64,000 nucleotides of DNA. Origin: Thermoproteota archaeon (GTDB lineage: Archaea > Korarchaeota > Korarchaeia > Korarchaeales > Korarchaeaceae). Positions within the stretch are counted from its first letter, which is position 1. Each line of letters opens with the position of its first letter. The notes under the pieces are model-generated. The model ran no database searches. It saw only the letters and a program-made list of their open reading frames with translations, and was not told where the DNA came from. The DNA is taken from NCBI GenBank assembly GCA_015522685.1, contig WALU01000035.1, forward strand, positions 58,035 through 122,034, in the 5' to 3' direction. This document shows positions 26,312 to 33,365 of this stretch, piece after piece. Both the position numbers and the translations under genes were made by a program.

Positions 26312-26860
26312 TTATAGCTTCATCTGATCTTCATTATCATCAATCTCTAAGCCTTCTCCTGCGCCCATCCTCTGAGAATATTCATACAGCACTATTCCTA
26401 TTATTATCCCTATTATAGCTAGTTTAGCTGGAAGACTTTGTAGGATTTCTAGGACTCCTCCTATGTAAGGGACTCTAAATATCGCCTTTCCGTAGATATC
26501 ATTTATAGTTCTATAGCTAGGATCCATGATCAGATTATTGTCGCCCTTTGTGAAAAATATTGGACCGTTAGGGCCTATAGATATCCTCACGATTCTATGT
26601 ACTATAAGGGAGCTAGACCAAGGAACCCTAAATACTATTATATCCCCCACCTTAAGCTGATAGGGATCTGCTTTCACAACAATAAGTAAATCGCCTACAT
26701 CTAATGTGGGTCTCATGGAACCAGAGGTGACTACTGTAAACGGCGATTCTACTCCTGTAAAAAGGGGAAGAGCTGCCTTGAAAAATAGTAAGAAAATGAT
26801 AAAAAGTACAGCTAGAGTTACTAACTCCTTCCCAAGCCATTTATTAGCATCTTCTGCCAA
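26312..26860 (-). CDS. Signal peptidase I (archaeal/ER-type)
   Basis: VVTSGSMRPTLDVGDLLIV, GDIIVFRVP...IVHRIV, FTKGDNN; two TM segments. Confidence 0.9.
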   Translation of the reverse strand: MAEDANKWLGKELVTLAVLFIIFLLFFKAALPLFTGVESPFTVVTSGSMRPTLDVGDLLIVVKADPYQLKVGDIIVFRVPWSSSLIVHRIVRISIGPNGPIFFTKGDNNLIMDPSYRTINDIYGKAIFRVPYIGGVLEILQSLPAKLAIIGIIIGIVLYEYSQRMGAGEGLEIDDNEDQMKL

Positions 26861-26861
26861 T

Positions 26862-27005
26862 TTAAATCGCCTTAACTACCTTAGGTTCCTCTTTTCTTAC
26901 TTTTCTTAGTATCCTATAACCACAACGAGGGCATTTGAAGTCTTTGAAGTATTCCTCCATTTCTTCTTTAGTAAAGGTATATCCACATCTTAGGCATTGA
27001 TACAT
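26862..27005 (-). CDS. rpoP: DNA-directed RNA polymerase subunit P (Rpo12)
   Basis: Hand translation, absent from the ORF track: MYQCLRCGYTFTKEEMEEYFKDFKCPRCGYRILRKVRKEEPKVVKAI; CxxC...CxxC zinc motif. Confidence 0.9.
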   Translation of the reverse strand: MYQCLRCGYTFTKEEMEEYFKDFKCPRCGYRILRKVRKEEPKVVKAI

Positions 27006-27049
27006 TGCTCTCACCAGTAGAAAATCTGGATCTGATCGCTATCATAAAT

Positions 27050-28066
27050 TTATTCTTGTGCTTGAGAAGATACCTTAATTTTCTCCGAAACCCTTCTTTT
27101 TATCTCTGAAAGCCTCTCTTCCTCTATCTCCTCCAACCATTCCTTTCTAGCTTTTTGTATTAGCTCCTTATACCTATTTCTCACAGTTACTTCAGTGACG
27201 TTGGCGGCTTGAGCTAGCTCCCTCTGTGTCCTGTGAATTCCTAGCTCCTGGCATGCCATATAAACAGCAGCCGCTGCAACACCAACAGGCTCTCTTCCCA
27301 TAGTAGCTCCATTTCGCTTAGCTATCTTAATTATTCTGATGGCCTGTGTAGCGATTTCCTCAGGTAAATTAAGCTTAGAGCATATAAGATAAACAAAGTT
27401 CTCTGACTTTGGTGGGGGGATCTGTATACCAAGCTTCCTAAAGAGGAATCTAAAGCTTCTTCCAACCTCCTTTTCCTCTAGTGAGAAATATCTAGATACT
27501 TCCTCTAAGGTTCTTGGAACATCTGTTCTCCTGCATGCGGCATATATGACGGCTGCTACCATAGCATCCATACTCCTTCCCTTAACTAATCCGGCACGAG
27601 CAGCCATTCTGTATAGAGTAGCAGCATCTTCTACAGTTTCCTGTGGTATATTCAGAGATTCAGCGGCATCCCTTATCTTCCTTAAAGCAGGCTCTACTGT
27701 TTTTTCCTTAGAATCAGCTACGTGTTTTTGAGTTCTTTTTAGCTGATTTACAGATTTCTTACTTAATCCACGAGTAAGTGTTATCTCTGTATCTAGACCA
27801 AAACTAGGTCTTAGGGGAGTAACTGGAGCACCTGCGTGCGCTCTCTCCATATATTCATCTGAATCGAAGGCTCTCCAATCTTTAGAAAAGTTAAGTATAC
27901 TAGAATCGATAATTAGGCCGCAATCTTGACATACTAGATCACCGGTTTCAGGATCCTCTACTATATTTGTGCTACCACATCGAGGACAACGAAATTCCTC
28001 CTCAGCTTCAGAAGATTTTTTAGCCTTTCCACGTTTCTCCTTAGATTTAGACAGATAAGACACCAC
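27050..28066 (-). CDS. tfb: Transcription initiation factor TFB
   Basis: Zn ribbon CPRCGSTNIVEDPETGDLVCQDCG, two cyclin repeats. Confidence 0.96.
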   Translation of the reverse strand: MVSYLSKSKEKRGKAKKSSEAEEEFRCPRCGSTNIVEDPETGDLVCQDCGLIIDSSILNFSKDWRAFDSDEYMERAHAGAPVTPLRPSFGLDTEITLTRGLSKKSVNQLKRTQKHVADSKEKTVEPALRKIRDAAESLNIPQETVEDAATLYRMAARAGLVKGRSMDAMVAAVIYAACRRTDVPRTLEEVSRYFSLEEKEVGRSFRFLFRKLGIQIPPPKSENFVYLICSKLNLPEEIATQAIRIIKIAKRNGATMGREPVGVAAAAVYMACQELGIHRTQRELAQAANVTEVTVRNRYKELIQKARKEWLEEIEEERLSEIKRRVSEKIKVSSQAQE

Positions 28067-28088
28067 CCAACTTAGTAAATTGCCGAAT

Positions 28089-28115
28089 AGTATATCTGAT
28101 ATACTTTTATAAACT
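28089..28115 (-). promoter_or_regulatory. tfb promoter: TATA box followed by a 7-bp inverted repeat
   Basis: Minus strand TTTATAAAAG followed by AGTATAT-CAG-ATATACT just upstream of the tfb start. Confidence 0.5.
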
Positions 28116-28286
28116 TTGCGGTAATATTATATGTATTAGTATTTATGGCAATATAACTTTAATTTAATGTCAATATGCTCTCATACAAATACTTCATTGG
28201 ATTAATATCAAAGAAAGATATATTCGGCTAGTAAGATATATTGGCATACATAAGGTTTTTAGATCCATAGACCTCATTAAGAATCA

Positions 28287-28360
28287 GCGGCCGTAGTCTA
28301 GCTTGGATAGGATGTCGGCCCTCCAAGCCGGAGACCCGGGTTCAAATCCCGGCGGCCGCA
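28287..28360 (+). tRNA. tRNA-Gly (UCC)
   Basis: GCGGCCGTAGTCTAGC...TCGGCCCTCCAAGCCGG...GGGTTCAAATCCCGGCGGCCGCA. Confidence 0.95.
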
Positions 28361-28382
28361 TCACTTATTAGGTGATATCCAG

Positions 28383-28718
28383 TTGGAGGATGAAATAGAA
28401 AGTAAGATATCTAAATTAGTGCGGGAATTGGCTAGAAAATATGGTTTTAGAACAGATAAAGCCTTAGACATAATAGCTGACCTCACTATTACCTTCATAA
28501 GATCCATTTTATCATCCAAGGAGAAATTATCTTCATTATCAGATCTTTTAGGGGAAGAAGATGAATGGAAGTACGTCGCTTTTTCCGTAAAAAGAACTCC
28601 TGTTTGCTCAAGCCCCTGCTTGATATCTCTAGATCTTGAAGGAGTTGTCAGAGAATATGGTTTTGGAAACCTCCATTATTTTCTCTTACTCAAGCATATG
28701 TGCGGGGGAAATGATTGA
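28383..28718 (+). CDS. Hypothetical protein, translationally coupled to the C25-like protease
   Basis: 111 aa; ATGA-type overlap with the next ORF. Confidence 0.55.
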   Translation: MEDEIESKISKLVRELARKYGFRTDKALDIIADLTITFIRSILSSKEKLSSLSDLLGEEDEWKYVAFSVKRTPVCSSPCLISLDLEGVVREYGFGNLHYFLLLKHMCGGND

Positions 28719-30385
28719 GATCAGCGTATCTGCTAATGGTTATAATTCTATTCTCATGTGTTCCATTAAATAGTTCAAGAAGCTTACCACAAGTGTATTT
28801 AGCTGGCGATATTAAAACTGCAGCATATTATACATCCTCATTAAATAATAGCTATAGGATAGTCCTTTCAAATAACATAACTAAGACCAAACTAAGGCTG
28901 AAGAGAATAGGTACGCTAATGAAAGAAGTTGCAATGAAAAAAAATATTTACATTAAAGGGCTAAGCCCTAAAGAGCTAGCATACCTCTTAGTTTACTTGC
29001 ATGAGATCAATAAGCCAGATGTTTTGTATAATAAAAGCAAAATACATTCCATATTAAGCAGATTAGGTGATATCATTAAAAACATCTCTAGTAGAAGATC
29101 CAGCTATGCAATTTTGTTTTTCAGTTCAGATGGGGATTATTATGCAATTTTAGCAGCTTATGCAGCAATATTAAAAAAAGCTAGAATGATAGATATGGAT
29201 TATATTAAAGTTAATCCAGCATCGTTGAGAGGCGTAGATTATATGATCATGATTACGAAACCCTTGACTAACATTAACTATGGGAGGTATGATAAAGTTC
29301 TGAAATTGGCATTAGGCATAGATAATGATCCATATTTAGATTCATCTCTCGGAGTAATAACGGGAGTTACAATAGATACTCCTTTCATACTTCTCTTGGG
29401 ATCAACTTTCATCTCATCTATGTCAAGTAAAGCAGTAAGAGGCATTTCTTTAGAAGATGATCTCCCCTTAGCTCGTAAGATAGAATATGTTTCTTCATCC
29501 TATGGCTATAATTCTAAGATAATTCACCCTAATATAAGATATAGTAATATAACTCCTGAAATTGCATTATCAATATTAAATGAGGCGGAAGGCGGCATAA
29601 TTTACTTAAATTTACATGGAAATCCGTATGTGATGGCTTTAAAGAGTGACAGATACCCAATAATCACATCTTCTCTCATAAGGAGAGCAGAGATAGATGC
29701 TTCTATAATAATCACATTATCTTGTGATACTTTGAGATTTTCAGAACTAGAAGATCCGGGCAGATTAATAGCTTACTCTATGCTCCAAGCTGGAACTTTT
29801 GCTTACGTTGGCTCCAGAAAAGTAGAATTTAGCATAAGTTCCGAAGCAGGTACGTCCTATCCTGATCTTCTTCTCTTGATGCTCATGAATGGATACTCCA
29901 TAGGAGAGGCTGTTATGACCATCAATAACTTTCATATAATGGAGTTTCAAAAGGCGGGCATTAGAAACACTGAGGCAGCTTATGAGATTCTTCTAGGGGA
30001 TCCTTCTCTGAAATTAAGAAGTAATACTATGTTTCCGTATAGAGTTCAGCGTATAGCTGGCAGGAAATATGAAATCTATATATTAAGTACTATACCTACG
30101 GTGTATGTTAGACTTACGGGCCTGCAAGGAAATGTAAGGGATATCCATATTGAAAGCAAACTTCCATCTACCTATTATGTATGGTATGTAGATGATAGGG
30201 GTGTGTCTATCTATATATCAACACTCTCCTCAAGCTATAGTGGCTACTTTCCTAGAAAATCAGGTATTCTAATAGAAATACTAGCAAATCAATGGTATCT
30301 GGAGCTAATACCATACATAGCAATTCTGCTAACCATAATCTTATTTCTAGGAATGATTCTGTATTCCAGGAAAGATCACGAATAG
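28715..30385 (+). CDS. Membrane-anchored gingipain/C25-like (clan CD) putative cysteine protease
   Basis: Signal peptide; IIYLNLHGNP (His), IIITLSCDT (Cys), AGTFAYVGSRKVEF, and ILLGDPSLKL near the domain end; C-terminal TM helix. Confidence 0.6.
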   Translation: MRSAYLLMVIILFSCVPLNSSRSLPQVYLAGDIKTAAYYTSSLNNSYRIVLSNNITKTKLRLKRIGTLMKEVAMKKNIYIKGLSPKELAYLLVYLHEINKPDVLYNKSKIHSILSRLGDIIKNISSRRSSYAILFFSSDGDYYAILAAYAAILKKARMIDMDYIKVNPASLRGVDYMIMITKPLTNINYGRYDKVLKLALGIDNDPYLDSSLGVITGVTIDTPFILLLGSTFISSMSSKAVRGISLEDDLPLARKIEYVSSSYGYNSKIIHPNIRYSNITPEIALSILNEAEGGIIYLNLHGNPYVMALKSDRYPIITSSLIRRAEIDASIIITLSCDTLRFSELEDPGRLIAYSMLQAGTFAYVGSRKVEFSISSEAGTSYPDLLLLMLMNGYSIGEAVMTINNFHIMEFQKAGIRNTEAAYEILLGDPSLKLRSNTMFPYRVQRIAGRKYEIYILSTIPTVYVRLTGLQGNVRDIHIESKLPSTYYVWYVDDRGVSIYISTLSSSYSGYFPRKSGILIEILANQWYLELIPYIAILLTIILFLGMILYSRKDHE

Positions 30386-30421
30386 TATTTATAAAGAGAT
30401 TCAGTTAATGGTAAGGGGTGG

Positions 30422-30496
30422 GCCCCGGTAGCTCAGCTTGGTTGGAGCGCCGCCTTGGTAAGGCGGAGGTCGCGGGTTCGAATCCCGCCCGAGGCT
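30422..30496 (+). tRNA. tRNA-Thr (GGU)
   Basis: GCCCCGGTAGCTCAGC...CCGCCTTGGTAAGGCGG...GCGGGTTCGAATCCCGCCCGAGGCT; upstream TATA-like ATTTATAAAG. Confidence 0.93.
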
Positions 30497-30519
30497 TCAT
30501 TTGCAAAGGGTGTGTTACA

Positions 30520-31116
30520 GTGGTACTAGCTACAGCAATTGGTGTGAAGTTTAAAGATGGAGTGGTCCTAGCAGCTGATAGGAGAGTATCTTACGGCACT
30601 TTCGTGTTGAGCAAATCAGCTAAGAAAGTTTTCTTGCTTAATGATAAGGTTGGTATTTCGACAGCAGGCTTACCGGGAGACTTTCAAGAGCTTATTGATG
30701 TGGTCAAATTTAATATGACCATATATGAATTAGACCATGAGAGAAAGGCTAGCCCAACTAATGTAGCCAAATTACTTTCTCTCTTATTATATCAAGGTAG
30801 ATTTAAGGGTATATATTACACTGAGCTTATAGTGGGAGGGGTAGAAGGGGGAGTCCTTAAGATACTGGTTTTAGATCCTGCTGGCGGGCTTATGGAGGAG
30901 AAATTCGCGGCTGTAGGCACTGGGGCTCAGATTGCCACAGGAATCTTGGAGAGAAGATATAAGGACAACTTATCTGGAGATGAGGCTTTAAAACTCGCCG
31001 AGATGTCAATGAGAGAGGCTATATCTAGAGATGCTTTATCTGGTGACGGTATAGATATGTTGCTTATATCTAAATCAGGTACAAAGGTGATATATATACC
31101 TCTCAAAACCGCGTAG
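30520..31116 (+). CDS. psmB: Proteasome beta subunit lacking the catalytic Thr1 residue
   Basis: From GTG 30520: MVLATAIGVKFKDGVVLAADRRVSYGTFVLSKSAKKVF; Asp17 and Lys33 equivalents present, position 1 is Ala. Confidence 0.85.
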   Translation: MVLATAIGVKFKDGVVLAADRRVSYGTFVLSKSAKKVFLLNDKVGISTAGLPGDFQELIDVVKFNMTIYELDHERKASPTNVAKLLSLLLYQGRFKGIYYTELIVGGVEGGVLKILVLDPAGGLMEEKFAAVGTGAQIATGILERRYKDNLSGDEALKLAEMSMREAISRDALSGDGIDMLLISKSGTKVIYIPLKTA

Positions 31117-31125
31117 GGATTTACA

Positions 31126-32241
31126 ATGAGCCTCACCAATCAAGATAGAGTAAAGAGTATGCTAATAGATCTAGCAGGAATAAAGAGTTTTAGGGGAAGA
31201 GAGGGTGAGGTGGTCTACTATATAACGGATCTTCTTTCTAGATATGCAGATAAGGTAATACACCAGCCAGTAAAGGATTGCGCTGGTAATGTAATAGCAT
31301 TTTTAAATGCAAAAAGTAAGGATAATGTTCTCTTATTAGCTCACACAGATACTTTTGAGATATATACCAACTGGACTAAGAGTCCCTGGGGTGATATAGA
31401 GGAGGACAAGTTGTACGGCCTTGGCGTATTTGATGATAAGAGCATGATTGCAGCGATGATGGAGACCTTAATTACTGCATCGAAGTGGGGCAATAGTAGA
31501 GGACTTGTATTTGCAGCTGTATGCGATACTGAAGGGTTTAGTAGAGGTACTTACGAACTGTTGAGAAGCGGCATACTTCCGAATGTAAGTAAAGCTATAG
31601 TGGCTGGACCTACAAATATGAAATTATTCAGAGGAGCTTTTGGTAGGTTCGTATTTGATGTAGATATATGGGGACTAGCTGCTCCAGGTACCGAGGAGAC
31701 GGGAATTAATGCCGTTATAGAGGCTGCTAAGATTATACTTTGGGCAATCGATCTGCCTAAGGTTGATGGTATAGGAGGTAGTGTAGCTCCATTAAGTATA
31801 AAATCCCCTGAACTAATTATAGCCCACCCAGATAGATGTTTAGTAAGGCTAGATAGGCACTATCCTCCGGGGAATGATCCTGGAGTCATAAGAAAGAAGT
31901 TCATGAAACATCTCAAGAAGACCCCAGAGCTAAAAGCCAAGATAAAGGTATCGCTGATGAAGAGGCCTACACCATTTATGGAGCCGTATGAACTAGCAGA
32001 GAACGATGATTTCATAGAGGAGATTCAATCTATAGTAGAGGAGGTGATAGATAAGAGATTAAATGTTGATATTTACAGGACGGTATCTGACGCGAATTAC
32101 CTTTATAGGATGAAGGGAATAAAATCTGTAATATTTGGACCAAGAGGAGGAAATCATCATTCAGCTGATGAGTATGTATCTCTACCATCAGTGTATAAAG
32201 TAGCTGAAATTCTTGCCCACTTGTTTAAACCACAGGGTTAG
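31126..32241 (+). CDS. M20-family metallopeptidase
   Basis: LLLAHTDTFEIY...GLGVFDDKSMIAAMME...VCDTEGF...GGNHHSADEYV. Confidence 0.85.
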   Translation: MSLTNQDRVKSMLIDLAGIKSFRGREGEVVYYITDLLSRYADKVIHQPVKDCAGNVIAFLNAKSKDNVLLLAHTDTFEIYTNWTKSPWGDIEEDKLYGLGVFDDKSMIAAMMETLITASKWGNSRGLVFAAVCDTEGFSRGTYELLRSGILPNVSKAIVAGPTNMKLFRGAFGRFVFDVDIWGLAAPGTEETGINAVIEAAKIILWAIDLPKVDGIGGSVAPLSIKSPELIIAHPDRCLVRLDRHYPPGNDPGVIRKKFMKHLKKTPELKAKIKVSLMKRPTPFMEPYELAENDDFIEEIQSIVEEVIDKRLNVDIYRTVSDANYLYRMKGIKSVIFGPRGGNHHSADEYVSLPSVYKVAEILAHLFKPQG

Positions 32242-32243
32242 AA

Positions 32244-33365
32244 ATGATTTCTCAAGATTTTCTCATAGATTTTCTCATCTTCTGGGCTGCTGTCTATGCA
32301 ATCGGATCTGTCACGAGCAGATACTTAGGGAAACGTAGATTAAAGGTCAATATATTTTATATAGAGTTGTCATTTCCTCCAGAGAGTTTTTCTAGCGTGT
32401 TTAGACCATTGGGTAGAATAGTCGGCCCTCTTTTCAAGCTAGGCATAATCTCCTTACTTGCGCTTTCCGCAATAACATTTATTTATATGATTCAAATAAC
32501 AATTAGTGCCATTTCTGGGCCTAAGGTAGCCGGAATAGTGCCAGTTATACCGGGAGTGACTTTTGAATTGAGTGCACCTGTTCTTCTCTCGATATTCATC
32601 GTCTTAGTTGTCCATGAATTTGGGCATGCTGCTGCAAGCACATATGTGGGTGTCCAGATAAAGAAGATTTCTTTTTTCATTCTATTTCTCTTTATAGGAG
32701 CATTTGTGGAACCAGATGAAGATTCTATAAAGAGACTTGATCCTGTACGTAGGATGGGAATCTACTCCTCTGGCATATTCATGAATATTCTAACAACATT
32801 GCTTGTAGTTATAATAGCACTTTCTATATTTCCTGGATTTCTCTATTCTCCATCCGGCGCCTATGTAGAAAATGTTTTTCAAAATGGTCCATCATATGGT
32901 ATACTGCCCAATAATGTAGTAATCAAGCAGATAGGAAGGTATAAGGTTACGGATCTTAAGTCTCTGATAGAAGCGCTGAGAGAGTATCGTCCAGGGGAGA
33001 GTGTTCAAGTAATTACAGATCGAGGATCATTTATAGTTAAGTTAGGGCCTAGACCAGATAACCCTAGTATGGCATTTTTAGGCGTTAGGCTCTCCTCTTT
33101 CCCATATTATTCCCCAATAATACCCCTTCCTAGTTATATTATTATCCAACTTATAGAATTATTCTACTTTCTTTTACTCTTCAACATAGGATTAGCGGGC
33201 CTAAACGCCCTGCCAATGCTACCATTGGATGGTGGTTTAGTTCTATCAGAACTGCTAACGATCTATCTCGGGAATGAAACATTGGCGAGAAAACTGACTT
33301 GGGCTGTATCAGCCCCTCTGGCTTTAATATTGGTATATAATGTGCTATTATTTTTCTTGAGTTGA
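32244..33365 (+). CDS. Site-2 protease family (M50) with PDZ insert
   Basis: VVHEFGHAAAS (HExxH), LPMLPLDGG, internal PDZ-like region GPSYGILPNNVVIKQIGRYKVTDLKSLIEAL. Confidence 0.9.
   Translation: MISQDFLIDFLIFWAAVYAIGSVTSRYLGKRRLKVNIFYIELSFPPESFSSVFRPLGRIVGPLFKLGIISLLALSAITFIYMIQITISAISGPKVAGIVPVIPGVTFELSAPVLLSIFIVLVVHEFGHAAASTYVGVQIKKISFFILFLFIGAFVEPDEDSIKRLDPVRRMGIYSSGIFMNILTTLLVVIIALSIFPGFLYSPSGAYVENVFQNGPSYGILPNNVVIKQIGRYKVTDLKSLIEALREYRPGESVQVITDRGSFIVKLGPRPDNPSMAFLGVRLSSFPYYSPIIPLPSYIIIQLIELFYFLLLFNIGLAGLNALPMLPLDGGLVLSELLTIYLGNETLARKLTWAVSAPLALILVYNVLLFFLS

Follow-up and report, generated by a model that had tools for sequence, protein, structure and literature searches.

Sequence and structure comparisons in this study supported the assignment of a predicted 556-aa korarchaeal protein as a surface-anchored C25/gingipain-like clan CD protease, and gene-order comparison indicated that the 111-aa gene overlapping its start is an independent neighbour, not a dedicated protease partner. 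The DNA analysed is a stretch of 64,000 nucleotides (the window) from a genome whose genus we take to be Korarchaeum, and the search set at the phylum level comprised 29 genomes. The protease assignment, made in a preliminary description of the window from its letters, was borne out by the Pfam matches, the conservation of the catalytic His and Cys, the hhalign comparison and the structure matches of an AF2 model. The protease adds a member to an established enzyme family and is not a new kind of system; what this study defined is a korarchaeal C25 clade that is compact and vertically inherited and that, being close to the limit of what profiles detect, can easily be overlooked.

Locus Organization

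The 111-aa ORF (28383..28718) and the ORF of the 556-aa C25-type cysteine peptidase (28715..30385), both with a TTG start and, like all features given below, on the + strand, were found where the preliminary description had placed them, and the overlap with the protease start is real, with four nucleotides (TTGA) shared between the end of the first ORF and the start of the second. The pair is flanked by two tRNA genes that the description did not mention, namely tRNA-Gly(TCC) (28287..28360) upstream of the 111-aa ORF and tRNA-Thr(GGT) (30421..30498) immediately after the protease. The protein gene that follows encodes the proteasome beta subunit (30520..31116), which holds this position in most genera of the family whether or not the protease is present.

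The gap between tRNA-Gly and the 111-aa ORF is just 22 nt (28361-28382), with no evident space for an archaeal promoter between them, and the 111-aa ORF and the protease may be expressed by read-through from the tRNA-Gly promoter. Between the protease stop and tRNA-Thr (30386-30420), a TATA-like tatttataaag is present, with similar sequence in congeners; therefore, tRNA-Thr probably has a promoter of its own. The nonsynonymous and synonymous differences were pN 0.18-0.46 vs pS 0.66-0.86 for the protease and pN 0.03-0.39 vs pS 0.75-0.87 for the 111-aa ORF. Since synonymous differences are at or close to saturation and the proteins have changed only moderately, both ORFs are real, constrained genes.

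The surrounding region (26312-33365) is rich in peptidases, with a signal peptidase S26, the C25 protease, the proteasome beta subunit, an M20 peptidase and an M50 site-2-type protease within 7 kb. This cluster is suggestive of protein turnover; the order proteasome-M20-M50 is also retained in other genera that lack the C25 gene.

Family Assignment and Conservation of the Protease

The window protein was aligned with 16 homologues that are 21-67% identical to it (n=17). His301 (LNLHGNP; codon at 29615..29617) and Cys337 (ITLSCDT; codon at 29723..29725), the predicted catalytic residues, are invariant in 17/17 sequences, each being the sole invariant residue of its kind, and the spacing between them is 34-36 residues across the homologues. 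The dyad and the GDPSL motif of the C25-type end, at residues 428-432, are all present as the preliminary description had reported, and the conservation of His and Cys, on which it had made the assignment depend, is complete.

Pfam Peptidase_C25 (PF01364) matches 16 of the 17 members, with a best E-value of 7.8e-11. The window protein itself (E=8e-5, 22.5 bits) falls 0.5 bit under the cut-off of 23, which is exceeded by three congeners and by the distant members L016, L017 and L029. Taken together with the uniqueness of the invariant His and Cys, these matches indicate that the resemblance to C25 is not due to chance. Further, hhalign comparison of the protease family with six canonical archaeal C25 domains gave a probability of 97.8% and an E-value of 6.6e-13, and in this alignment, His301 and Cys337 fall on the invariant His and Cys of the canonical domains. 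Searches of PDB sequences with the single sequence and with the family profile returned no gingipain match.

Homologues of the protease were found in 15/16 genomes of the genus, each of which has a single one. In the remaining genome (G004, 63% complete), the proteasome beta gene starts 346 bases from the contig end, which leaves no space for the protease; therefore, the gene is probably missing there because of a gap in the assembly. An internal TAG in two homologous loci (L013 and L014) was considered as recoding and rejected, as it is a normal stop near the C-terminus. Profile comparison revealed no internal repeat in the N-terminal region.

Based on sequence and model, the korarchaeal clade would consist of compact, vertically inherited C25 members, and the enzyme is probably active. 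C25 proteases have already been reported from archaea, and those of Thermoprofundales are largely predicted to be extracellular (PMC6461988). In the open-access literature, outside which most subscription papers lie, no discussion of this korarchaeal clade was found. The canonical archaeal C25 proteins (e.g., L096 and L097) have the C25 domain, the dyad and the GDP end in common with it; those in the checked genomes are for the most part longer proteins (589-1295 aa) with Pfam E-values of 1e-40 to 1e-61, whereas the korarchaeal clade is compact and near the Pfam detection limit. A second C25 protein of G024, a genome of the same order as the window (858-aa frame, L018:304-2763), resembles the protease in having a C25 domain (55 bits) and differs in a weak match to the cell-wall-binding CWB2 model (E 0.0021, below the cut-off) that is unseen in the window protein.

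Predicted Structure and Topology

The AF2 model of the protease, built from 12 sequences, had a mean pLDDT of 76.4 and a pTM of 0.78, with pLDDT <50 in both active-site loops (301-315 and 336-348). In the model, strand 295-300 is followed by His301 and strand 330-335 by Cys337, which puts the two residues at successive core-strand ends, as in RgpB and other clan CD enzymes (PMC4357240). Six PDB matches were below an E-value of 0.001. The five best are all clan CD proteins, comprising two Kgp entries, RgpB and two separases, with the gingipains first, and the sixth is an unrelated dehydrogenase of low probability. The TM-scores to the gingipains are modest (0.34-0.46). These data support a gingipain-like fold class for the modelled protease; a structure without a caspase or gingipain fold, which the preliminary description had named as evidence to the contrary, was not what the prediction gave.

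By the strand and helix order of the model and by hhalign, the caspase-like catalytic subdomain containing His301 and Cys337 is predicted at about aa 240-434 (29432..30016). It is followed by a C-terminal beta domain at about aa 437-526 (30023..30292), in which seven strands at residues 442-524 lie between the catalytic domain and the TM helix; the domain is putatively Ig-like by position and strand count. In RgpB, an IgSF domain comes right after the catalytic domain (PMC4357240).

Concerning the topology, the signal-like segment at the N terminus and the C-terminal TM segment claimed for the 556-aa protein were recovered by hydropathy and as helices of the model. The N-terminal segment (aa 1-24, 28715..28786) has a basic N terminus and a hydrophobic stretch at about residues 3-24, with a model helix at 2-14, and a basic and hydrophobic segment of this kind is found by hydropathy in nearly all homologues. 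The predicted C-terminal TM anchor (aa 526-553, 30290..30373; model helix 527-555) has a counterpart in all homologues, and within the genus, it lies near the protein end, generally with basic residues after it. As exosortase/archaeosortase (PF09721) is absent from all 16 genus genomes in a search that recovered the M. jannaschii positive control, the C-terminus is read as an anchor and was rejected as an archaeosortase signal. A lipobox at the N-terminus (Cys14) was likewise rejected because Cys14 is not conserved.

The gingipains RgpB and Kgp (MEROPS C25; PDB 4ief, 4rbm, 6i9a) share with the protease the catalytic fold class, the order in which His and Cys stand at the ends of successive strands, the beta domain after the catalytic domain and export, which for the protease is predicted, at 10-12% identity in the structure alignment. 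The His-Cys spacing of RgpB, which we take to be 33 residues in the usual numbering, compares with the 34-36 residues of the korarchaeal homologues. Gingipains carry a type IX C-terminal signal, whereas the korarchaeal protease has a predicted TM anchor instead. In gingipains, an S1 Asp on helix 1 gives Arg or Lys specificity, whereas no conserved acidic residue was assignable to the S1 pocket among the protease homologues; acidic residues 247-249 begin helix 251-262 of the protease and are not conserved in distant members. No prodomain was identified in the korarchaeal protease.

The 111-aa Gene

Wherever the region is assembled in the genus (15 genomes), the 111-aa gene immediately precedes the protease, with the exact TTGA overlap in eight loci (L001 and L003-L009) and within a few bases in the others. 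Four further genera of the family also carry it, in seven genomes that all lack this protease. In these seven genomes, all that the protease-family profile A1 matched was parts of canonical large C25 proteins (G016 and G020); in G022, the Pfam C25 profile picked out a C25-like stretch within a frame of 889 aa. In five of the seven, a tRNA and the proteasome beta gene come after the 111-aa gene, and in the other two (G022 and G023), it stands beside tRNA-Gly, away from the proteasome gene, with another neighbour that we recognised by eye and take to be eIF2 gamma. Among 394 genomes, the gene was not found outside the family save for one weak partial match (G197, E 1.6e-4, covering the first 46 positions only), which was treated as chance. 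On this set, the 111-aa protein is specific to the family Korarchaeaceae.

The invariant features of this protein include EW, K, P and C-x3-C (CX3C). It gave no credible family in Pfam, NCBIfam or PDB, and its model is poor (mean pLDDT 59.4) and all-helical. The preliminary description was right that it has no signal peptide, and it has no TM segment either; the protein is probably helical and cytosolic.

That this protein serves as a dedicated inhibitor, chaperone or activator of the protease, the two forming one module, is unlikely. The fixed position in 15/15 assembled genus loci and the TTGA overlap in eight of them favour such a module, but the retention of the 111-aa gene without the protease in four other genera and the occurrence of the protease without the 111-aa gene in four other archaea (G024, G025, L028 and L029) argue against it, so the coupling named in the preliminary description was not upheld as a dedicated pair. 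Further, lacking a signal peptide and TM segment, the 111-aa protein would sit on the other side of the membrane, and it is more conserved than the protease. Among bacterial and archaeal genes, no spacing is commoner than the 4-nt NTGA overlap (PMC12548453); because it is so common, the overlap supports shared expression and not a shared complex. A role gained by the 111-aa protein only in this genus is conceivable. The conserved 4-nt overlap thus does not equal a functional pair here, and comparison with the sister genera separates the two genes.

Proposed Function and Alternative Explanations

From the computed family, fold class, residue conservation and gene order, we infer topology, catalysis, substrate role and a shared transcript as follows. 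The protein is very probably a membrane-tethered extracellular endopeptidase, as judged from sequence and model. It would be exported via the Sec route and held in the membrane by the TM helix at its C-terminus, the catalytic module facing outwards; this module would follow the gingipain plan of an alpha/beta N-terminal region, a caspase-like subdomain and a seven-stranded Ig-like beta domain. Cys337 would act as the nucleophile on the peptide bond and His301 would activate it. The likeliest job of the enzyme would be the endoproteolysis of cell-surface proteins, for turnover or processing, with peptides made available for uptake; surface protein turnover or processing as the physiological role is put forward tentatively, as a possibility somewhat short of even. 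The protease gene would have been inherited vertically in Korarchaeota beside tRNA-Thr(GGT) and probably lost in genera related to Korarchaeum, and the separate Korarchaeaceae-specific 111-aa gene would probably be co-transcribed with the protease in the genus and not depend on it.

It is very unlikely that the enzyme is instead a PorU-like surface sortase/transpeptidase, cutting the sorting signal of exported proteins and joining them to a surface acceptor. PorU (NF033707), the C25-family sortase of the type IX system, is likewise a surface enzyme with the C25 fold, and the membrane anchor, the single copy per genus genome, the vertical inheritance and the lack of an archaeosortase would suit such a function, together with a faint NCBIfam PorU match in 7/17 members. 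However, membership in PorU was rejected, as the window protein does not match the model and the best match, from a congener, has an E-value of 0.004. The canonical large archaeal C25 proteins give far stronger PorU matches (1.2e-25 and 1.9e-19), and these still lie far under the model's cut-off of 420 bits; therefore, the faint matches reflect shared C25 ancestry. No substrate signal was found in a search short of whole genomes. A sortase, which would display proteins on the korarchaeal surface in archaea without archaeosortase, would matter more if true, and little points that way. An inactive C25-fold surface protein serving as an adhesin or receptor is scarcely probable, since an inactive fold would not need the two residues that are the only invariant His and Cys down to 21% identity, against which stand the low-confidence active-site loops and the divergent sequence. 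Membership in another clan CD family (CHAT, caspase/metacaspase C14, C11 or C13) has just as slender a chance: separases are among the structure matches, but gingipains rank first, Pfam gives C25 and no other clan CD family for every matching member, and an Ig-like domain is predicted after the catalytic domain as in RgpB.

History of the Locus

Returning to the preferred reading of an anchored endopeptidase, its gene immediately precedes tRNA-Thr(GGT) not only in the genus but also in G024, from the same order, and in G025, from the same class. The tRNA-Thr of G025 (L060:6477-6563) was missed by ARAGORN and matched only in part by Rfam; its T arm is interrupted by an apparent intron, and its GGT anticodon was read by eye. 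The gene order in G025 is purA-protease-tRNA-Thr, with a divergent upstream neighbour that we identified by eye and take to be purA, and the order in G019, which is without the protease, is purA-111aa-tRNA-Thr. The tRNA-Thr linkage and these two orders suggest that the protease occupied this site before the origin of the genus.

In a species tree built from FBPase and the proteasome beta subunit, the protease-less genera form a clade beside Korarchaeum with weak support (61). As they cluster beside the genus, one loss is the simplest account, and the simplest history is that of an ancestral protease next to tRNA-Thr that was lost in the sister genera, the reading of a single event depending on the clade with support of 61; a gain of the protease in the genus is less economical. 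The loss of the protease in four genera would show that it is dispensable. In two other archaea (L028:1-5821 and L029:4806-10954), the same two large multi-spanning membrane proteins, transporter-like in appearance, are found near a homologue of the protease.
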